From Siphonodentalium dalli (lineage: Eukaryota > Mollusca > Scaphopoda > Gadilida > Siphonodentaliidae): 64,000 bases of DNA. The translations under genes were made by a program, and so were the position numbers. The DNA lies in the NCBI GenBank assembly GCA_032622095.1, contig CP136064.1, positions 185,424,209 through 185,488,208 on the forward strand, read 5' to 3'. Under the pieces are notes generated by a model, which worked only from the letters and a program-made list of their open reading frames with translations, searched no databases and had not been told where the DNA came from. Each line of letters begins with the position of its first letter. The first letter of the stretch is position 1. Of the stretch, positions 628 through 62,857 are shown in pieces.

Positions 628-1671
628 TTCTTCCAAAACAGAATGAGAACATAACTGGAGGGGATCAAAACTTTAAACTCGATTTCCGACAAAAATTTAA
701 ATATGGAGATAGAACACTTTAGTTCTGACAAGACGATATAACACTAATATCCTCAAAATTTGAAGTTGAAAACACCATATGTGCCTTTAAATGTAAATTT
801 ACAAGTGGTAACTAACAGTGTATACAACAATTGAATAAAATATATTCCCGATCAGTAGCACTCGATTCTATCATACTAGTATGTAGCACCAATCTCATAG
901 AAGACCCTGCTTCAAATGCCTGCAGTCTGACATGGAATTCATAATTGGGACATGGTACACTTATTTTTTTTATATTGGGAAGAGCGAAGGTAACAAGTTC
1001 ATAGGTTATATAAGCACAAATGAATTCAATTGGGCAATGATGAGGATAAATTTATAAATAGGATGAGCCAGGTAGCCAATTTTTTTAGCACATAAAATTA
1101 TGATATCAGTAACTCTTCTGTGACATGTATGATTCAACGATGTTTTGCACAGAATGTTATTAGAGAGCGAAAAACACTCAACCGCAATAGAAAAAAGATT
1201 TTGTATTGTTCATGTTCCAAGAACGAATGAGTCGTGGGGTTGATGTTGGACCGTTTTGTAAAAAAATTAACACCCTGCACTTTTCAGTATACAAAAATGC
1301 AAAAGAATCTGAGTAGCTGTAAGTTTCTTACTGCTGGAATGCTATCAGAAATAATAATTTGCTTCAGTTTTCGTGATAGTGAAAGCAAATTTATTATGTA
1401 GTATATACTGTCAGAGTAAATGTGGTCACAAAATTACTGATATTGGTAGAAACAGAAGTGGGTTGAAAACATTTTGACAGAATTGTTTAAATTGATTTGG
1501 TTGAATAATGAAAAGAACTAGGTGTGCGTTTCTGCATGATAATGACCCAACGTTATGTTCAATTACACAATGGTGGTGCAAATTTTCTGTAGAAAGAAAT
1601 ACTTTGGTATAAAATATTACAAGATCAACTGCATGAGTTGGGTTGTGGTTGGTTAAGTCAGCTCCAATTTA
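628..1671. other. No gene seen
   Basis: A+T-rich sequence. No coding signal or inverted repeat was noticed. Confidence 0.55.
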
Positions 1672-1675
1672 TTAA

Positions 1676-1925
1676 CCCTTCCATCAATGGAGCTCCCTGA
1701 AATTTTGTGAAAACCCTGTGCCAATGCATTCTCTTATATATGCGAGGTCCCATAGGGAGCCTCGCATATATAAGAGATTACATTGGCCTAACAATATTTA
1801 CTTTGACTATATAAGCCAGTCCATTCTCTTACATATGCAATGCTCCCTATGGCAGACTCGCATATATAAGAGCACTGGCACAAGATCTTTATTGCTGCAG
1901 CAGTGCAGCTCCCGTCATGAAAGGG
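1676..1925. mobile_element. TTAA-flanked MITE with internal tandem hairpins, copy 1
   Basis: The element is bounded by TTAA at 1672-1675 and 1926-1929. The left end CCCTTCCATCAATGG pairs loosely with the right end CATGAAAGGG. TTAA duplication with a CCC terminus is the piggyBac pattern. Inside are two hairpins built from CATTCTCTTATATATGCGAG and its complement. Confidence 0.75.
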
Positions 1926-1929
1926 TTAA

Positions 1930-3340
1930 TAATGACACACATTTCTGTGTATAAGAGTTACCGAACTAATATATGCCATAAATTTATCATGTTTAAATAA
2001 AAAAAAAATGACTGAATATTTAAAACAAGTAGACCATGTCAAAATTCAATAATTAGTCAAGACTACACAAACAAAATAACCAATGCTTAAAATGATCGTA
2101 CAAATACATAAAGAGTGAGCAATTTCTTTCACATTTCATAAATGTTCATACAGAAATATGTAGCATGAGTTTTGGAGCAAAAATAAGCTGCAAGATTCAG
2201 TGTGCACAATTAGTGAGAGAACAGAATTTGTGCACAATAAATCCAGCTAATATAATAGCAAATAAATTTATAAATAATTTCATATGAAATTCTGTTGTTC
2301 TATTTATGGGGAAGAGGCAAATTAAGGAGCAGGAATTATAAAATTAATGAACAAGTCAGCCAAATTTCTTTACTTTGACAATTCACGAACAGTATTACAA
2401 TTTATTTCAAACATTGCTTCCAGGTGACCTCATACAATTTTCCCAAAGTTATATTGGTTTTGTATGGAAAAGCAAAAAATATTGCAATATTTCCTAAAAA
2501 AAATTGTCTGAGCTGTTATACAAAGAGGTTTAGATCATAAAATGTCAATCTTCAAACTTGAGTTGCGATAGAAATATTCTTGGCGCGAAAGCACCTTGCA
2601 ATATATCTGTGGGAACGCTTGACATTTGCCAATAAGTCGAATGACTTGGTGACTTTGCAGAAAACAACTGGGAACCATGGGTATGTTTTGTCTGGATGTC
2701 TGTCACTGATAACAACGTTATCTGCTTTGCTGGAATGGCTAACTGTATACATACATTGCAGCTTTCAAGGTTCACATAATTTATTGTGAATCACACCACG
2801 ATATTAATTGAACTATAGGAGCTTGTAACAAAAAAATGTTCTACGAGTATAAAATTTTATGTTATAAAGCTTAAAATTAAACTGGTTTATATTAAGATTT
2901 AGGGTGCATACCTAGAATCATTAATATGGTTACCATGTTTGCTACAAAATAGAAGTTATCGTAGGTACTTTGAATGTTCTAAATCAGTTTTGACACAATG
3001 GAAACGTCTGGCGATCAGCTGACTGTCAGTAACTAATATCAAACAAAGATTTTTTTTCCATTTTACAATCTTAACCTCTCCAGTATTAAATTTACGGGGT
3101 GCTATACAACTCAATTAAGCATGTGAATGCCTTATCAGTTTGCGTTGGAATGTATGGGTTTCTCAACCACATACTGCTAATATTTTCAACTGTGAAAATG
3201 ATATGTAAAACATGAGAAGTGTAAGTCAGATCAATCCAGCAATTATTTTTGTTCTATATACAACACAAAACCAAATAACGTTTTGATTCATAAAGAAACT
3301 GACAAAAATATATTTCTGAAATTATCCCTTTCTTTGCTAA
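1930..3340. other. No gene seen
   Basis: Overlapping small ORFs on both strands at 2545-2790 have no recognisable motif and no splice context. Otherwise A+T-rich filler. Confidence 0.55.
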
Positions 3341-3348
3341 CTAATCAT

Positions 3349-3779
3349 CAAGTCTGAGTTTAGTGTGCCTGTCATTTGCAGAATGAGGTCACCAGTGGGT
3401 GAATTTAGTGATGCTATCCCGCATAGCGGGTTAGCATCACCAAAACCACCCTCTGGGGACCTCACTCTGAATAGCCTCATCTGTTACGGGAGACATAGAC
3501 TCAGATTGAAGTTCCAATATGGTGAATATTGTGATGTACACCCATTGGGAACCTTGAATATGCAATGTGTTGTCTGCCAATTTGCAGATATAGAGAAACT
3601 AAACTAAAAAAGAAATAGAATGTATGTGAAGAAGTTTCTATAGAATTTTGATAATAAGCAGAATGAGGTCCCCAGAGGGTGAATTTAGTGATGCTAGCCT
3701 GCTATGCGGAATAGCGTCACTAAATTCACCCTCTAGGGACCTCATTTTGCAAATGAAAGGCACACTAAACTCAAGCTTG
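3349..3779. mobile_element. Double-hairpin hAT-like MITE, copy 1 (8-bp duplication)
   Basis: A 431-bp element is flanked by the exact 8-bp repeat CTAATCAT (3341-3348 and 3780-3787). The ends CAAGTCTGAGTTTAGTGTGC and GCACACTAAACTCAAGCTTG are inverted. Each arm is itself a hairpin: AATGAGGTCCCCAGAGGGTG and its reverse complement face each other across a short GCTATCCCGCATAGCGGG-like loop. An 8-bp duplication points to hAT transposase. An ORF at the left end is a shadow of the arm. Confidence 0.85.
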
Positions 3780-3825
3780 CTAATCATTTAAGAGTAGTCC
3801 CTTTTTGAAATGTTTCGATAATACG

Positions 3826-3992
3826 GCAAGTTCAACAGACACCGATTACTATGAATACTCCTGCACTTGTATTATCTATTTAACTGTCTTGACATCTGCT
3901 TATATTTGAGCACCCGTCAAGATGAATAATAGATCATTCCAATGTATACTTCAATGATATATTTAGTAAAGAAAGGGGTCAATAAAATCCAA
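3826..3992. repeat. Dispersed repeat, same family as 6697-6905
   Basis: It shares the AATAATAGATCATTCCAATG and AAAGAAAGGGGTCAATAA blocks with the repeat beside the CSRNP stop codon. The left end is uncertain. Confidence 0.5.
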
Positions 3993-4797
3993 TTAAGAAT
4001 GACTAGGCAATTTTGATTAAAATATCAACCTATAACTCATTATATTATATCAATATTATTATCACAGTATAGTCTGCACAATGATTCACACATTGATTTC
4101 CAGTCTCTTTAAAAAGCTGACTATAATCTGATCAGATTTTCCTCTTTAGATCACTTATTGAGATTTCATTTCTATATTGATGGGATTTCCTCCATCCCAT
4201 TGGTTATGGTTTAGACTATGCACTATTTCATTAATTTCTGACATAACAGGTGGAATCGAATACTTAAAAAAAGCCGATAACAATTACAAACACTGTTTCG
4301 TGGTTGGTTACATTTAAATTGCGAGATCGGAGGTCAATGATGTGTTGACAATTTTCCCACGCATGGCGAGACAACAAATTTTATAATACAGAATACAGAC
4401 GACATTCATAATGATACTCATCGCAATCTAGGAGACAACATCTTCCAGTTTTTATCAGTCAACTATATTTATCACATAATTAGCCCCTAAGCCCGGTCTC
4501 ATATCTTTTAGTGAGACACATGTGTATTATCGCCACGTGCAGTGACATCAGAGTTCAGCGCAATGATGTCGATGTCAAATGCTGGAACTTTATTATTACG
4601 TTAATTAGAAAATAAATATGATACTTGACTTGTGTTGGGTTATTTCATGTTGACTGTGAGACAAACATGGGTGGTTAAATAATGTTGTCAACAAGAAAAG
4701 ACACTTTTAAAATGGAACTATATTTTTTCTTGAAGCCAAGGTGTCTTTGGTAGTGTTAAGGAAATCAATGTTAATTTGTTTTAATTGAGTTTTAATT

Positions 4798-41280: not shown

Positions 41281-43827
41281 GAAAGTGTCAATGACACTGT
41301 AGCTCAACTTGGAAAGGGAATAATTTAATGTATTACAGTCAATGGACCGATTAGGAATGTGGAAAGTTGAATGTCTAATACTAGTTTATAGACATGAAGA
41401 GAAAAGTAAAATCCAAGATGGCTGCTGGCGGCCATGTTTTCGGCCGAATGACCCCAAAATGATTGTATCCCATCTACATGTCATCGTTAACATCCATGAC
41501 AAATTTTATGACGATCAGACTAAAGGTACGACCTGTAGCCTATGCTAAAGAATTTAGTCATACAAAGAGTAAAATCCAAGATGGCTGCTGGCGGCCATGT
41601 TTTTTGGCCGAATGACACCAAAATGACTCGTTCCCATCTACATGTCATTATTAACATCTATGACAAATTTTTATGACGATCAGACTAAAGGTACGACCTG
41701 TAGCCCATGCTAAAGAATTTAGTCATACAAAGAGTAAAATCCAATATTAACAACCATGACAAATTTCATGATGATCAGACGAACAGTACGACCTGTGGCC
41801 CATGCTAATGGATTAAATTTTGAAATCCAAGATGGCCACTGGCGGCCATGTTTTTTGTCCGAATGACCCCAAAATGACTCGTTCCCATTTACATTCCAAT
41901 TTCAACAGCCATGACAAATTTTATGATGATCAGACTAAATGTACGACCTGTAGCCCGTGCTAAAGGATTTAGTCATACAAAGAGTAAAATCAAAGATGGC
42001 TGCTGGCGGCCATGTTTTTCTGCCGAATGACCCCAAAATTACTCGTTCCCATTTACATTCCAATTTCAACAGCCATGACAAATTTTATGATGATCAGACT
42101 AAAGGTACGACCTGTAGCCCGTGCTAAAGGATTTAGTCATACAAAGAGTAAAATCAAAGATGGCTGCTGGCGGCCATGTTTTTCTGCCGAATGACCCCAA
42201 AATGACTCGTTCCCATCTACACGTCATTATTAACATTCACGACAAATTTTATGATGATCAGACTAAAGGTACAACCTGTAGCCCGTGCTAAAGGATTTAG
42301 TCATACAAAGAGTAAAATCCAAGATGGCTGCTGGCGACCATGTTTTTTGGCCGAATGACCCCAAAATTACTCGTTCCCATCTACATGTCATTGTTAACAT
42401 TCATGACAAATTTTATGATGATCAGACGAACAGTACGACCTGTGGCCCGTGCTAATGGATTAAATTTTGAAATCCAAGATGGCCACTGGCGACCATGTTT
42501 ATTGGCCGAATGACCCCAAAATTACTCGTTCCCATCTACATTCCAATTTCAACAGCCATGACAAATTTTATAATGATCAGACTAAAGGTACGGCCTGTAG
42601 CCCGTGCTAAAGGATTTAGTCATACAAAGAGTAAAATCCAAGATGGCTGCTGGCGGCCATGTTTTTTGGCCGATTGACCCCAAAATGACTCGTTCCCATC
42701 TACATGTCATTATTAACATCTATGACAAATTTTATGATGATCAGACTAAAAGTAGGACCTGTAGCCCGTGCTAAAGGATTTAGTCATACAAAGAGTAAAA
42801 TCCAAGATGGCTGCTGGCGGCCATGTTTTTTGGCCGAATGACCCCAAAATTACTCGTTCCCATCTACATGTCAATATTAACATCCATGACAAATTTGATG
42901 ATGATCAGACTAAAGGTACGACCTGTAGCCCGTGCTAAAGAATTTAGTCATACAAAGAGTAAAATCCAAGAAGGCTGCTGGCCGCCATGTTTTTTGGCCG
43001 AATGACCCCAAAATTACTCGTTCCCATCTACATGTCAATATTAACATCCATGACAAATTTCATGATGATCAGACGAACAGTACGACCTGTGGCCCGTGCT
43101 AATGGATTGAATTTTGAAATCCAAGATGGCCGCTGGCGGCCATGTTTTTTGTCCGAATGACCCCAAAATGACTCGTTCCCATCTACATTCCAATTTCAAC
43201 AGCCATGACAAATTTTATGATGATCGGACGCAGGGTACGACCTGTAGCCCGTGCTAAAGGATTTAGTCATACAAAGAGTGAAATCAAAGATGCCTGCTGG
43301 CGGCCATGTTTTTTGGCCGAATGACCCCAAAATGACTCGTTCCCATCTACATGTCATTATTAACATTCTTGACAAATTTTATGATGATCAGACTAAAAGT
43401 ACGACCTGTAGCCCGTGCTAAAGAATTTAGTCATACAAAGAGTAAAATCCAAGATGGCTGCTGGCGGCCATGTTTTTGGGCCGAATGACCCCAAAATTAC
43501 TCGTTCCCATCTACATGTCAATATTAACATCCATGACAAATTTCATGACGATCAGACAAACAGTACGCCCTGTAGCCCGTGCTAATGGATTGAATTTTGA
43601 AATGCAAGATGGCCACTGGCGGCCATGTTTTTTTACCGAATGACCCCAAAATTAATCATTCTGGTCTAAATGTTGATGTCAACAGCTATGACAAATTTCA
43701 TAATGATCCGACCAAAGGTACGACCTGTAGACTGCATTGTTGACGCCTTACGTACACACGCACACGCGGACGACGGACGACAAAGCCATGGCAATAGCTC
43801 AAACTTTACAAAGTAAAGTTGAGCTAA
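41281..43827 (+). mobile_element. Pearl-like tandem-repeat element with about 15 monomers in higher-order order
   Basis: About 15 units of roughly 160 bp run from 41400 to 43735, each with AATCCAAGATGGCTGCTGG, CCATGTTTTTTGGCCGAATG, ACTCGTTCCCATCTACATG and GATGATCAGACTAAAGG. A variant unit (GATTAAATTTTGAAATCC, with GACGAACAGTACGACCTG before it) appears at about 41823, 42468, 43116 and 43598. The array is preceded by GTGTCAATGACACTGTAGC and followed by a CGGACGACGGACGAC tract and TTTACAAAGTAAAGTTGAGC. It is non-coding: three near-identical 60-residue ORFs are only the repeat read through. Confidence 0.85.
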
Positions 43828-56968: not shown

Positions 56969-57360
56969 GTTAGTTTGTACCAGTATTCACGGTGGGGAAT
57001 CACATGGTTTCGAGGTTGGTGATTACCACGCATTCATAATACGCACAAAAACATAATATACGAGGAACTGACACAAAACATAGCAGTTTGTTACGAGCAT
57101 ATACATGTATGCTAGTTATTTTTTTGAACGATTTGATAACTTATTTGTTCGGAAATACTTGGTGGTTTTCCATAACATTCTGACCAAAAATGCCAGTCGG
57201 AAGTGCGTGGAATACACCAGTCTATACATCTTGGAGAATCCTTCGACTGACAACGTTGGTCAGAATCTTAGAGCAAACAAATGTGAATTTTGACATAAAT
57301 GAGGTTTCAGCTTGTTGGAAAAATAGTATAGCATCTGCCTGTATGGCAAGCCAAACCGCT

Positions 57361-57490
57361 ATTTAATATTAATTTTACTTAAGTAAAATAAAATGACACT
57401 TTATTTCACTTAAGTGAATTAAAGTGCCATCTACATGGTTTTATTTTACTTAAGTAAAATAAAATGACATTTTATTTTACTTAAGTAAAA
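57361..57490. repeat. Palindrome array, TTTTACTTAAGTAAAA class (left end)
   Basis: Four CTTAAG palindromes at 57378, 57409, 57449 and 57480, in TTTTACTTAAGTAAAA or TTTCACTTAAGTGAAT context, spaced about 30-40 bp. They form the subterminal part of the left inverted repeat. Confidence 0.85.
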
Positions 57491-57869
57491 TTAAAACGCA
57501 CACTAATTTTACTTAAAGTGATGTGAAACGTAAATTGAACCTCACAATTGAGTTCCCTGCGTCATTCTGTGGGAAGAATGAATAAAATAACTCAGATACA
57601 CGAAATCCCCCATCCTGAAGTCAGTTTGTACACATTATACGGCCATTCGGCTAACTATTTATATTTCATCAATCGTCCCGATTAATCTCACCTTAATAAC
57701 ACGAAAAAACAAACCGATGCGTTGTCTTGTGCAGTCACGGAAATGACCGAGCACTTCCGACTCGATTGGGATTGAATCGGGTTTCGTTCTCAGAAATGGC
57801 TTCTAGGGAGGATGACCGTTCGCTGGAATAGCGTCATGCACATCAGAATATTAAAGCGAAAAACAAATT

Positions 57870-58000
57870 GACATTGCAATCGGTAGTCAATTCGACAGGG
57901 AAGGAATAGAAAGGGAATTGTTGCGTGAAATCACAAACGGAAGAACATTGGCCGAGTTAGTGGCAAAGATTATAATCGAACAGTGATCGAGAGGTAATAA
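57870..58000 (+). pseudogene. Peptide-like relic inside the inner element, left side
   Basis: An open stretch after a stop at about 57854 reads SEKQIDIAIGSQFDREGIER then ELLREITNGRTLAELVAKII before a stop. The amphipathic, helix-turn-helix-like character suggests the N-terminus of a transposase, but the family is not identified. Confidence 0.3.
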
Positions 58001-58309
58001 TTCCAAAATGTTACTATTTATAGAAAATTGTAAGCGCATTGACAGAATTTTTACATCAATCTGGCCGCAAGCACAGTACCGTGCAGAAAGAGTTGTCTTA
58101 CTTTTGTAACTCAAAACTGTTTAATTACATTATACCTGTACAATAGTACAAATAATTGGTATTCAATATGCCAGTACAGAACATTTGTTAGCTCATTGGC
58201 CATGAAATGTTTTTAATGGCAAATTCTGTTGTCAAGCTTTAGTAAGCACTATTCATTCTGATGGATGATAACTATAATGGAAAGCCTTTTTCACATGTAT
58301 TAGCTAATT

Positions 58310-58572
58310 GCACTTTAGCATAAGTAAATTACAATTAAGCGTAATGTATTACACTCAGGTGTAATGCACACATATAAAGCGTACTTCACTTACGCTTAAC
58401 CGTATGATGTAGATAAAGCATTACTCCTATGAGTAATAGAATTATGACTAGTGTGCTTAAGCGTAATTGATTAAAGTGTGCTTAAGCGTAATTGATTTAC
58501 GCTTAAGCTCACTGGTCATTTATTTTCATTGATAGATTAATTACACTTAATCATAAATGAATTATGCTTAAG
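58310..58572. repeat. Palindrome array, TTACGCTTAAGCGTAA class
   Basis: Full or partial copies of ATTACGCTTAAGCGTAAT, with exact cores at about 58456, 58481, 58502 and 58567 and degenerate ones in 58310-58400 (CATTACACTCAGGTGTAATG). Confidence 0.8.
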
Positions 58573-58619
58573 CGATTATACGAGAAGCCGTTTTCACATT
58601 TATTCTGATTCCGCTTAAT

Positions 58620-58845
58620 CGCAAATCATTTACGCTTAAGTGTAAATCATTTGCACTTAAGAACAAATCATTTATACTTAAATACAAATAATATGCGCTT
58701 TAGCGGAAATAGTATGGGAGGCCCTTTTCACATTTATTATTTATTTGCGCTTAAGCGCAAATATTTGTGCTTAAGCGTAAATCATTTGCGCTTAAGCACA
58801 AATATGTGTCTATCAATTTATTTGCGCTTAAGCGCAAATACCTAA
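58620..58845. repeat. Palindrome array, ATTTGCGCTTAAGCGCAAAT class, left block
   Basis: Cores at about 58635, 58656, 58750, 58770, 58791 and 58827. Several are perfect 20-mers (ATTTGCGCTTAAGCGCAAAT). Neighbouring ones are spaced about 20 bp, so the palindromes nearly abut. Confidence 0.85.
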
Positions 58846-58924
58846 CACTCCATTACATCCCTCTGATGTGAATGATTGAGTCCATCTCATATTATATTAG
58901 CATGGGCCCATAGTAATAGCCCCA

Positions 58925-59312
58925 TACAGACTCGAAGTTGAAGAAAAAACATATTTCCATATGCATATCAGCATCTGTGTCCCTGGTGTCCCAAGATTTG
59001 GTGCCTCACTCCCAGAGCTCATGTATATTTTATTATCTCCTGCACAGATATATACCATTTCCATGGCCATAAATAGGGAATTAGGGTTTACTGGGGTTTG
59101 CTTCCCTCATATGGTGTACTCATTGACTTGAAGTTGGGGAAAAACCCCTATTTTCATAATATCAGCATCCCTGTCCCCAAGAATTTGTGTCGCCATCCCA
59201 GAGATATAGTATATTTTATAAAAGAGACATATCCTACACAGATCTATATCATTTCCATGGTCATAAAACAGATCTTGGGGTTTCTGGGGGAATGTTTCCC
59301 TCATATGGTGGG
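58925..59312. repeat. Two-unit tandem repeat of about 195 bp between palindrome blocks
   Basis: Both units share GAAGTTG(A/G)(A/G)GAAAAA, ATCAGCATC, CCTACACAGAT-like and ATCATTTCCATGG segments and end CTTCCCTCATATGGTG-like. They contain no CTTAAG, and chance ORFs here are not conserved between the units. Confidence 0.65.
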
Positions 59313-59389
59313 GCTATATCAACTTTAGTGATGTGTTTAGGTCTGTGCCATGTAAAATTAATTCAGGGGGGATCAATGCATATTGATTT

Positions 59390-59620
59390 TTATTTGCGCT
59401 TAAGTGCAAATGATTTGCGCTTAAGCGCAAATAAGATCTATTTGCTTAATTGCAAATGATAGAGGTTATTTGCGCTTAAGCGTAAATAAATAATAAATGT
59501 GACAAGGGCCTCCCATATAATAGATCACATTTATGGCAATTTTATGCTAAAGCGCAAATATATTATTAGACACATATTTTTTTGCGCTTGAGCGCAATTG
59601 ATTTACACTAATAACTAATA
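59390..59620. repeat. Palindrome array, ATTTGCGCTTAAGCGCAAAT class, right block
   Basis: Cores at about 59399, 59420 and 59475, plus near matches (CGCTTGAGCG). The module GGAGGCCCTTTTCACATTTA of the left block (58716) appears here inverted near 59500. Confidence 0.8.
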
Positions 59621-59769
59621 TATTTGAAAAGGCTGTCTCCCATGCGATTTCCTCTAAACTCAAATTTACTCTGTCAATAAGACATCAATCAAACATCGGT
59701 TTAGACTCCCCCATATACTATGAGATGGACTCAATTATTCAGACAGAGGAAATCAGTTGGAGTTAGGTA

Positions 59770-60420
59770 TTTGCTTAAGCATTATTCATATTAATTATGC
59801 TTAAGTGTAAATGAGTTCCGCGCTTAAGCGTAAATGAAGTACGCTTAAACGTAATTCATATACACTCTTATTGAACTCCCCTCAAGCTGAAATGGATGCA
59901 ACCGCATTACTAATGCCAGTAACCTACATCAGGTTATACCAATATACATGAGGTATATGGGGAGCCAAATTAACATTTAATAAATAATAGAGCTTAAGCG
60001 ATATAATTGAGCTTAAGCGATATAATAAGGGAAGATATAATTGCGATTAAGTTCAATAAGGAAATATCTAATTGCGCTTAGCACAATAAGGAATATCTTA
60101 TTGCACTTAAGCACAAAAAGGAATATCGTATTGCACTTAAGCGCAATAAGGAATCTCTAAGCGCAATAAGGAATCTTATTATTGCACTTAAGCGCGATAA
60201 GAAATATTCTTATTGCACTTAAGTATAATTAGTCTCGAGATTCCTTGATTGGGGGGGGGGGGGCTTTAGCTCAATTATTTATTAAATGTTAATTTGGCTT
60301 CCATAGAGGTGAGATAGTTGATGAACCCAATTACACTTAAGCGTAATTCAAATGTATTACGCTTATCGTAAGTTAATTATGCTTAAGCATAAATAATTTA
60401 TGCTTAAGTGTAATTAGCTA
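59770..60420. repeat. Palindrome array, mixed ATTGCACTTAAGCGCAATAAG class
   Basis: About a dozen CTTAAG cores (59774 to 60402). In 60040-60230 they are linked by AATAAGGAATATCTTATTGC at about 30-bp spacing, which forms a regular ladder. A poly-G tract interrupts at 60252. Confidence 0.8.
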
Positions 60421-61120
60421 CTATAAAGTGAATCTGGGATAAGGGGAGTACTCTAAATTGTTCTTTCGACCAGCTGTTTCTACCAATTAAAAAAAATTCT
60501 CATTTATTTTGAAACTAATGAAAGACAATGGTATATTTTTTTACTAGTAATATTCATTATAAACTTGTACAAATCTGAAAACAAACAAAATTTTAATATT
60601 TAAGAAATTTAGAGTTCCCTCTCTTACAGCAGCAACCACTATGCCAGGATGACCAATCGACCTAGTTCAGCCCGATTGGGTTATTATAATTTATAGATCG
60701 ATCGGTGGTTCATGCACTCTCTGCGTTTGAAATATTGCTAATAATTTCCATTTACAGAAGTCAATAATGCCATTGCAGATAACTTCATCTTAAATTCGAC
60801 CAAATGTGTTGACGTTTGATAAGAAGGGCAGGAATTCCCCGATTTGTTTATTTTCAATCGATGAGAAGCATGACGACCTGGATCAGCTGATCGGTTCGGA
60901 GGTGTGCCAATCGTATTTTGCATGCTGTGAATACCCATTCATGCCTAAATTTGCAAACAATCCATATATAACATATACACAGTGTGTACACTTTGTTAGT
61001 TGCCAATTAATTCTCGACATTTTAATTAGAAAATATGAGATATCGATGCAAAAATTAAGACATAATCACATTATCTAGTTTGTGTTTTGTTGAATCTACT
61101 TTCGGTTATCGACATGCCGG

Positions 61121-61312
61121 CTATTGTTTTGGCTGTTCTGTCAACCGTGCGTGCCAGCCGATCGTCGTTTTTCGGGCCGTTCCGATTTCTTCCGAATATA
61201 ATTCCATGACCTCCACGCGATGATTCGCGCCGAAAATGTGGTTGTATCTGAGAAGATTTCTTATTCTGACCGCAGTTTTCAACAATTTAATACGGGGCGA
61301 ATACCGCATCAA
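61121..61312 (-). pseudogene. Peptide-like relic inside the inner element, right side
   Basis: A 63-codon ORF on the minus strand, basic, with RIRNLLRYNHIFGANHRVEV. The region is unusually CpG-rich for the window (TCGTTTTTCGGGCCGTTCCG), as is 57650-57800 on the left side. It could be a remnant of a transposon gene facing the left-hand relic, or chance. Confidence 0.25.
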
Positions 61313-61439
61313 TAATATGCAACCTTGGGGTTTTATTTCTAGTTTTTTATGACCTTTCTTATGGTATATCGGATACAGTTCTGTCTGACATGAAATATAT
61401 ACCCACCGGGAGTGAAGCTAATGACTTTAAGTGAAATAA

Positions 61440-61650
61440 AATTACCATTATGTTACGCCCTTTTTTATTATACTTAAGTAAAAAAGAATTTTACTTAAGT
61501 GAAATAAAACAGTTTTTATTTAACTTAAGTAAAATTCTTTTTTACTTAAGTAAAATAAATGAACATTTGGGTTTATTTCACTTAAGTGAAATAAACGCCA
61601 TCTACCAGTCATCGATAGATGTCATTTATTTTACTTAAGTAAAATAAAGT
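61440..61650. repeat. Palindrome array, TTTTACTTAAGTAAAA class, inner right block
   Basis: Six cores between 61473 and 61634, some alternating with TTCTTTTTTACTTAAGTAAA. About 80 bp at its right (CACTTAAGTGAAATAAACGC...ATCGATAGATGTCATTTA) recur at 62289-62371 in the same orientation. Confidence 0.85.
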
Positions 61651-62009
61651 GCAACAAGTGTTTAGAGACCAACGCCAAATCCCACCGAACCACATGTGAC
61701 CTTGTTATAAGGACAGCGAGTGTTTTATGATACATTGATGACAGAATGAGATTAGCACCAACCTCATGCAATAAAATTGAGAACATTCCACACCCACTGC
61801 CATTACCGCAATAATCAGAGAAAACTGCTAAATTGTGTGATGCGTTTGTGTTTGATGCTTATTGTGCTGAGAACGAGATATAATCACATATCATACTCTT
61901 TTAAATATCAGATTTATGGAGGCATGTACTTAGTACGAGTGTTAATTGCTTCAAATGTGCTTGCTGCAGTGAGCGAGACCATTGGTGAATTGATATAGCA
62001 ACATAATGC

Positions 62010-62033
62010 CTGGGACTAGTATACTAGTCCCAG
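62010..62033. repeat. 24-bp perfect palindrome
   Basis: CTGGGACTAGTATA followed by its mirror CTAGTCCCAG. It does not contain CTTAAG and sits in the spacer between the two right-hand arrays. Confidence 0.85.
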
Positions 62034-62288
62034 ATAATGCCAACATTATGCCGACATTCCAAGTTCGGGGTTGCGGTACAATAGTTAGTGACCACCAGTT
62101 GTGGCCGGCTGCAGCTTTCTGTAGCTTTCTACTGCGCATGCCTAGCCAGCTACGACTGTAGCCTGGGTTGCTCAAATACACTCATAATACACAACGGGAG
62201 ATAACTTTCTCACGAACATGAACAGCACTCCCGGCGCACATGCCAAGGGAGCAATTATTAGTTTGCAAGATGACTCTCATAGTGGGCG

Positions 62289-62612
62289 CTTTATTTCACT
62301 TAAGTGAAATAAACGCCATCTACCGGTCATCGATAGATGTCATTTATTTTACTTAAGTAAAATTAATGCATTATTTTACTTAAGTAGAATTCTTTTTTAC
62401 TGAAGTAAAATAAAGGTCATTTTTTATTTTACTTAAGTAAAAAAGAATTCTACTTAAGTTAAAACATGGTTAATTTTACTTAAGTAAAATTCTTTTTTAC
62501 TTAAGTAAAATAAAAAATGACCGTTATTTCACTTAAGTGAAATAAAATGACATTTTATTTCACTTAAGTAAAATAAAGTGTAATTTTATTTTACTTAAGT
62601 AAAATTAATATT
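62289..62612. repeat. Palindrome array, TTTTACTTAAGTAAAA class, right end
   Basis: Ten cores between 62299 and 62594. Its outer 75 bp pair with the left end of the element. Confidence 0.88.
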
Positions 62613-62857
62613 AAATAGCGGTTTGGCTTGCCATATGCCTGTAGCTGTCAAAATAATATGTAATATGTAATATCTTAGTTTATTACCTTTTTACCTGGTT
62701 GCATTTTACATCGCCTCGGCCATTTTGAATCCGTGATACTCTTCAACTCGAAACCACGTGATTCCCCACCGTGAGTATTTAAAGACATGTAATGTGCTTA
62801 TAACTAGTAAACTCCTTCAATCTGATACATTATGATTCAGCCACTCACACATTTTAA

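Follow-up and report, generated by a model that had tools for sequence, protein, structure and literature searches.

Nested transposons with phased palindromes in the scaphopod Siphonodentalium dalli: a probable IS3EU-like element split by a TTAA-flanked repeat

What kind of element fills 5.3 kb of a mollusc genome with palindromes centred on a single hexamer? The question is raised by positions 57342-62635 of a 64 000-nucleotide stretch (C4:185424209-185488208; hereafter the window, i.e. the whole stretch of DNA that was analysed) from Siphonodentalium dalli, whose genome was searched over 2.23 Gb in 9 contigs. The window contains 52 CTTAAG sites, compared with a mean of 15 after shuffling (0/100 shuffles reach 52), and 45 of them lie within 57342-62635, the remaining 7 being spread over the other ~58.7 kb. 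An earlier note on this DNA had pointed to about 45 cores there and to their rarity elsewhere, which is borne out, and had taken the region for one 5.3-kb mobile element whose termini matched no superfamily that it could name. Our analysis resolves this puzzling structure into nested insertions: we consider it likely that the locus is a nest of cut-and-paste transposons, in which an IS3EU-like element of 1.38 kb is split by a TTAA-flanked repeat and in which the palindromes are bound by a transposase supplied in trans. The outer element is referred to as class A, and its relatives with other palindromes as classes B and C. The features of the locus are as follows (+ where a strand was assigned, otherwise no strand).

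57142-57341: left flank, belonging to a further high-copy repeat that was the target of the class A insertion (paralogous empty sites)
57336-57341: TGCCTG, the 6-bp target site duplication, left-hand copy (single target copy at paralogous empty sites)
57342-57516, +: left arm of the class A element, putatively IS3EU-like and non-autonomous; terminal inverted repeat TATGGCAAGCC..., four CTTAAG palindromes and the left half of a split fifth
57513-57516: left TTAA duplication, within a CTTAAG palindrome (comparison with intact copies)
57517-61426: 3.91-kb TTAA-flanked element inserted in the class A element (uninterrupted sites elsewhere; same insert at other loci)
58578-59643: older element nested in the insert, with ends ATACGAGAAGCC / ATGGGAGACAGCC (18/26 identical) and GCGATT on both sides
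58713-59517: element nested within 58578-59643; 51-bp terminal inverted repeat TATGGGAGGCCC..., 49/51 identical, flanks AAATAG/TAATAG (5/6)
59956-60305: further nested relative in the insert; ends TATGGGGAGCC.../TATGGAAGCC..., flanks GAGGTA/GAGGTG (5/6)
61427-61430: right TTAA duplication (comparison with intact copies)
61431-62635, +: right part of the class A element, ending in the right terminal inverted repeat; two palindrome arrays around ~640 bp of other sequence
62636-62641: TGCCTG, right copy, outside the right terminal inverted repeat
62642-62774: right flank, the same high-copy repeat continuing (limit of matches, query 201-333)

Boundaries and nesting

The inverted terminal arms of the class A element (57342-57430 and 62547-62635) are 89 nt long and 94 % complementary, their outermost 48 bp are identical between the two ends, and the ends themselves read TATGGCAAGCC..GGCTTGCCATA, i.e. 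TATGG..CCATA. The long terminal inverted repeats (TIRs) and the TGCCTG direct repeats outside them had been noticed before and are confirmed here. For the empty site, 200+200 bp of flanking sequence were joined after removal of the element and one TGCCTG, and 40 places were scored out of 2639 first-look candidates. Of the 69 matches, the long ones number 40, one for each scored place; they are 88-90 % identical and cross the junction. The other 29 are shorter, on the opposite strand and at those same 40 places. At two loci, L049 and L050, the alignments continue across the junction with one 6-bp target, TGCTCG, where the window has TGCCTG. Since these related repeats carry the uninterrupted site, the boundaries that had been proposed for checking are exact, and 57342 and 62635 are the true ends of the element.

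Between these ends lie two elements, not one. Four class A copies (L003, L005, L006 and L007, of which L006 and L007 represent one duplicated event) read uninterrupted through CACTAATTTTACTTAAGTGAAAT, where the window holds the insert; their sequence at this point is ...CACTAATTTTACTTAAGTGAAATAAAATTACC, which the window splits at TTAA. L052, L053 and L054 contain the same insert, again bordered by TTAA on either side, with aligned pieces 97-98 % identical, the first two of these loci lacking window 60071-60420. A single 5.3-kb element is thereby ruled out, as other class A copies are without the 3.9-kb insert; mobility was correctly read from the sequence, in view of the ends, the 6-bp duplication, further copies and empty sites, but not the unit that moved. 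Without the insert, the class A element measures 1380 bp; taken together, its two parts align with the intact copy L005 over 1326 bases and are 97.7 % identical to it. The arrays of its right part (61464-61648 and 62290-62608) enclose ~640 bp without a long open frame. Its interior also holds a 24-bp perfect palindrome, CTGGGACTAGTATACTAGTCCCAG, at 62010-62033, where the matches of L002, L005, L009, L010, L012 and L015 break; this may be a small extra insertion.

The insert is 3910 bp long, has the ends AGTGATGTGAAACG / AGTCATTAGCTTC, contains no open frame of at least 120 amino acids (aa) and carries 25 of the 45 CTTAAG sites in older nested relatives; the 58713-59517 element bears the class C palindromes TTTGCGCTTAAGCGCAAA. 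Genome-wide, its left end gave 804 and an inner piece 1168 first-look candidates, and the 40 scored copies of each are 98-100 % identical. The TTAA-flanked repeat has captured nested IS3EU-like elements and amplified them. Duplication of TTAA is a feature of both piggyBac and Kolobok; the insert, a candidate for either, shows it in the window and at L052, L053 and L054. The grouping of palindromes by class along the region, noted earlier, is real, and it follows from the nesting of elements inside one another.

Both main families are abundant. A search with the 29-bp class A end, in which 1 mismatch was allowed, gave 273 hits in forward and 263 in reverse orientation, and one with the class B end (TATGGCAAGCCGTTTTCACATTT) 412 and 379, the control (the reversed sequence for class A) giving 0 in either case. 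Pairing of exact ends in the loci fetched by means of these ends gave 26 pairs, from which 4 were dropped as ends of different elements (1/6 bases alike) and 3 rows were merged as repeats (L007 with L006, and one row each of L035 and L041). A perfect 6-bp target site duplication (TSD) is present in 18 of the 19 complete insertion events, i.e. 14/14 for class A and 4/5 for class B, the sole exception being the class B copy L038 (2/6 bases), which has internal ends. Further copies with the same ends, for which a search had been recommended, exist in large number. They span 180 bp to 15 kb, and in L015 one class A copy interrupts the interior of another, the interior of the inserted copy providing the same stretch uninterrupted.

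The long fetched class A copies (5-15 kb) were considered as autonomous candidates and rejected, because they contain other insertions and no trace of the transposase family PF24764. The 15-kb copy L014 contains a reverse-transcriptase element: at L014:1764-3767(-) there is a reverse-transcriptase-like frame with a recombinase-like frame beside it, which we presume to be DIRS-like. Within a class A copy, L015:410-1720 is a separate insertion that has the inverted ends CTAGTGCTGGGACGG... and carries a BED zinc-finger frame.

A common frame and helical spacing

All three classes share TTnnnCTTAAGnnnAA, to which each adds its typical triplet. Many CTTAAG sites of the outer element are centres of longer palindromes, perfect up to 26 bp, and their symmetry extends further out than chance; the 7 background sites have a symmetry of 6-10 bp, near chance beyond the core. 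Half-sites flanked by TT account for 45/46 in the class A copy L005 and 39/40 in the window element, for 33/34, 42/44 and 37/40 in the class B copies L034, L040 and L039, and for 14/14 in 58713-59517; the proportion is 39/50 over the whole insert and 2/14 for background CTTAAG. As their triplet, 42 of the 46 half-sites of L005 have TTA or TCA, 30 of 34 in L034 have GGA and 9 of 14 in 58713-59517 have GCG; over the whole insert the triplets are mixed (GCG in 12/50).

Spacing was analysed for neighbouring palindrome centres less than 70 bp apart. In L005, 16 of 21 spacings equal 21, 31-32 or 53 bp, and in L034 10 of 15 equal 20-21 bp, i.e. the spacing favours whole helical turns. When spacing is expressed as phase at 10.5 bp, class A has a mean cosine of 0.58 and three class B copies lie at 0.43-0.48, which exceeds random jitter (P <0.0001 to 0.007).

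IS3EU-type ends, transposases and their palindrome arrays

To which superfamily do these elements belong? According to the accessible text of PMC10045372, an IS3EU family that is complete ends in TA..TA and usually makes TSDs of 6 bp, and the accessible text of PMC12730594 gives 6-bp TSDs, TIRs of >30 bp and TAYGG..CCRTA ends for the IS3EU families of rust fungi. The window element and the counted class A and B copies (selected by those ends) show TAYGG..CCRTA; the 6-bp TSD is that of the 18 perfect events and the empty site, and the TIR length, stated for the fungal families, is exceeded by the 48 identical outer bases and the 89-nt arms. Set against this published combination, the view that the termini match no superfamily is not supported. 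Because no transposase has been found with CTTAAG arrays, we infer from ends and duplication that the CTTAAG families, including the class A element, belong to an IS3EU-like family.

Pfam family PF24764, which IS3EU transposases match, has 126 matches in this genome and 0 in 14 control genomes. It is joined to TAYGG ends in two loci. The first, L031, holds an autonomous-looking IS3EU-type element (1643-4711) with the TIR TACGGAAGCC and flanks AGAACA/ATAACA (5/6); its 371-aa frame matches PF24764, and its two arms contain 18 palindromic repeats. The second, L043, combines the TIR TATGGGGCGC, flanks GAAATT/GAAATA (5/6) and a palindrome array with a C-terminal transposase fragment. Nine related frames have D201, D260 and E304 (L031 numbering) invariant, which we read as a putative DDE triad, and bacterial IS3 and IS481 models match the transposases of the related families weakly, at a level far below the cut-offs. 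Structure prediction for the L031 protein places three helices confidently within residues 72-112. The search for an autonomous copy, which had been recommended, yielded none for the CTTAAG ends; the autonomous-looking L031 element carries another palindrome array.

Palindrome arrays are associated with IS3EU-type genes beyond L031. A general palindrome scan, which required ten or more palindromes with a common core in a stretch of 1 kb, detected arrays that CTTAAG and end-pair scans of the PF24764 loci had missed: eight of 31 such loci (L027, L028, L030, L042, L043, L048, L056 and L057) reach this score, compared with 0/24 window chunks of 2301 bp (one-sided Fisher test, P ~0.006, a rough value given unequal locus lengths and the pairs L024/L025 and L042/L043, each one family). 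Likewise, none was scored in 8 window chunks of 7 kb or in L021, L022, L023, L049 and L050, while L020, which covers a class A copy, reaches 8. With L031 counted as a ninth array locus by its own pattern, and not by the fixed score, and L042 and L043 as one family, our grouping yields eight transposase families with arrays. Their cores differ (GATATATC, GTGGCCAC, GTTTAAAC, TGATATCA, CTAATTAG, GAGATCTC, TTAGCTAA and GGGAGAwAACTTwTCTCCC), but the mean of the spacings below 30 bp is 20.0-22.2 bp in all eight, measured at one locus per family. By their coordinates, the arrays of L027, L028, L030, L031, L048 and L056 adjoin the transposase frame on its 5' side, the side to which the sequence fetched for L055-L066, and hence for L056, was confined.

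Two of them deserve description. L048:820-2475 comprises 74 palindromes whose core is CTAATTAG and which mostly follow one another at 21-22 bp; it immediately precedes an IS3EU-type transposase frame. At L056:378-735, also before such a frame, GAGATCTC palindromes overlap with TCTCGAGA palindromes, 17 of each and mostly 21-22 bp apart. In addition, a 229-aa frame that represents the N-terminal part of the L031 transposase only is recurrent (mostly 76-92 % identical over residues 37-155), and at L036:2245-2931(-) and L037:1348-2034(+) it stands beside TACGGAAGCC ends with the same palindromes as L031; as a guess, its product is possibly a repressor-type derivative. Elsewhere in the window, 41742-43730 is a 164-bp tandem repeat in 12.3 copies.

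Proposed mechanism, alternatives and known systems

The palindrome arrays probably mark where the transposase binds. An IS3EU-type DDE transposase supplied in trans would bind the CTTAAG palindromes as a dimer via its N-terminal helical domains, and since the sites are mostly separated by 2, 3 or 5 helical turns, the dimers would lie on one face of the DNA, where they could nucleate a complex pairing the two element ends. Array-bound transposase may also repress transposase expression, since the arrays abut the 5' end of the transposase frames in related families. The triplet beside CTTAAG (TTA/TCA, GGA or GCG) would determine the transposase by which each class is recognised. From this, it is tempting to speculate about an IS3EU palindrome code, in which each lineage keeps its own phased palindromes at its ends and its own gene, co-evolving as lock and key with the DNA-binding domain, so that a three-base change in the TTnnnCTTAAGnnnAA frame could split off a class that is no longer cross-mobilised, while the 229-aa N-terminal copies would act as array-binding repressors; taken jointly, we regard these propositions as tentative, and somewhat less probable than their negation.

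Several observations weigh against the explanation by IS3EU-like elements with transposase-bound palindromes. On the side of spacing, 5 of 21 spacings in L005 (26, 27, 36, 40 and 48 bp) and 5 of 15 in L034 (24, 29, 36, 46 and 46 bp) are off-phase, phase is weak in the insert (mean cosine 0.27, P 0.045) and poor in L031 (0.19), and tandem duplication can enlarge arrays, which makes spacings within one array non-independent. On the side of the protein, the search for a transposase with CTTAAG arrays, which was unsuccessful, covered 31 PF24764 loci (for 12 of them, L055-L066, ~2.3 kb on the 5' side), the long pairs of class A and of class B ends, and further class A ends. Hidden Markov models gave no transposase trace in the window or any fetched CTTAAG locus, and, among the matches and ends listed, no PF24764 match is enclosed by class A or B ends (coordinates compared by eye, with ~168/536 class A and 100/791 class B ends listed). 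The catalytic part of the L031 model is poor (mean predicted local distance difference test score, pLDDT, 51.9), and no PDB chain matched by sequence. Moreover, 22 of the 31 PF24764 loci have no array by score or pattern, many of them having been fetched only in part; in L027, L028, L030 and L048 the array was scored on one side only within the stretch fetched; and TIRs were located in just two of the eight array-bearing families (L031 and L043, flanks 5/6 each), the latter having merely the C-terminal fragment.

Could the arrays instead be a by-product, i.e. a functionless minisatellite of ~21 bp, palindromic by chance, that expands passively within transposons? Arrays like that of L048 do resemble tandem amplification, and two oyster satellites with similarity to IS3EU are tabulated in the accessible part of PMC8268682. 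Yet such growth would have to account for eight families with different palindromes and a nearly equal basic spacing, for class A and B spacers of 21, 31-32 and 53 bp that favour one phase, with exceptions, and for a site symmetry preserved further out than chance, and we therefore think it unlikely, albeit worth keeping in mind. That the palindromes act through hairpin extrusion rather than protein binding, as in a foldback or cruciform element, would fit the folding of the right arm: 62289-62635 as single-stranded DNA folds far better than 100 shuffles (z -16.4). Hairpins, however, need no preference for whole helical turns, the class-typical triplet in a constant TT..CTTAAG..AA frame resembles a recognition site, and perfect 6-bp TSDs with precise TATGG ends are features of cut-and-paste transposition, all of which makes this alternative very improbable.

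The superfamily could also be another one. hAT6 and Dada are superfamilies with 6-bp duplications, the BED zinc finger is a domain of hAT transposases, and a convergence of the CTTAAG families on IS3EU-like ends would agree with the failure of any copy of their transposase to turn up, as well as with the BED frame inside the class A copy L015. That frame, the only one followed (hAT transposases near CTTAAG ends were not searched for genome-wide), sits in a separate insertion with its own inverted ends and was rejected as the partner transposase. As the full set of TAYGG..CCRTA ends, long TIR and 6-bp TSD is present, and as L031 and L043 combine the same type of ends with PF24764 sequence and palindrome arrays, we judge membership in a different superfamily improbable.

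We therefore favour a nest of IS3EU-like transposons with transposase-bound palindromes, and compare it with IS3EU / GingerRoot. The ends, TIR length and TSD described in the accessible text of PMC10045372 and PMC12730594 are common to the class A element, and the related families of this genome encode a DDE-type PF24764 transposase with weak IS3/IS481 matches; they differ in that no CTTAAG copy examined encodes a transposase, and in the phased palindrome arrays, which the accessible text of these two papers does not mention. Our literature search, in partial texts, found no description of such arrays in IS3EU; Repbase reports lay outside the search, and a prior description there is possible. 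With this limit, what appears to be new is the TTnnnCTTAAGnnnAA frame common to the three CTTAAG classes, with its class-typical triplet, and the long rows of different palindromes about two DNA turns apart in IS3EU relatives of this genome. The IS3EU/GingerRoot literature found, as far as accessible, consists of classification and genome surveys, the mechanism as such not having been searched for. Natural palindrome arrays of one basic pitch, at a recurring place by the transposase gene, would supply matched sets of protein and site, with which changes in transposase specificity and the control of transposition by the number and phase of sites could be examined.

Foldback elements have inverted ends made of short repeats, without constant cut-and-paste termini. 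They had been named as the nearest analogy, and the long inverted ends of repeated units, able to fold back, are indeed alike; the comparison fails at the precise 6-bp duplications and constant TATGG ends of class A, in which each unit is moreover itself a palindrome. In hAT and P-type elements, there are many subterminal transposase sites, and repeated internal sites near the ends assist the assembly of the complex. The class A element resembles them in having repeated sites near its ends, but the sites of hAT and P-type elements are short and belong to other transposase superfamilies, whereas the sites described here are long palindromes in helical phase.

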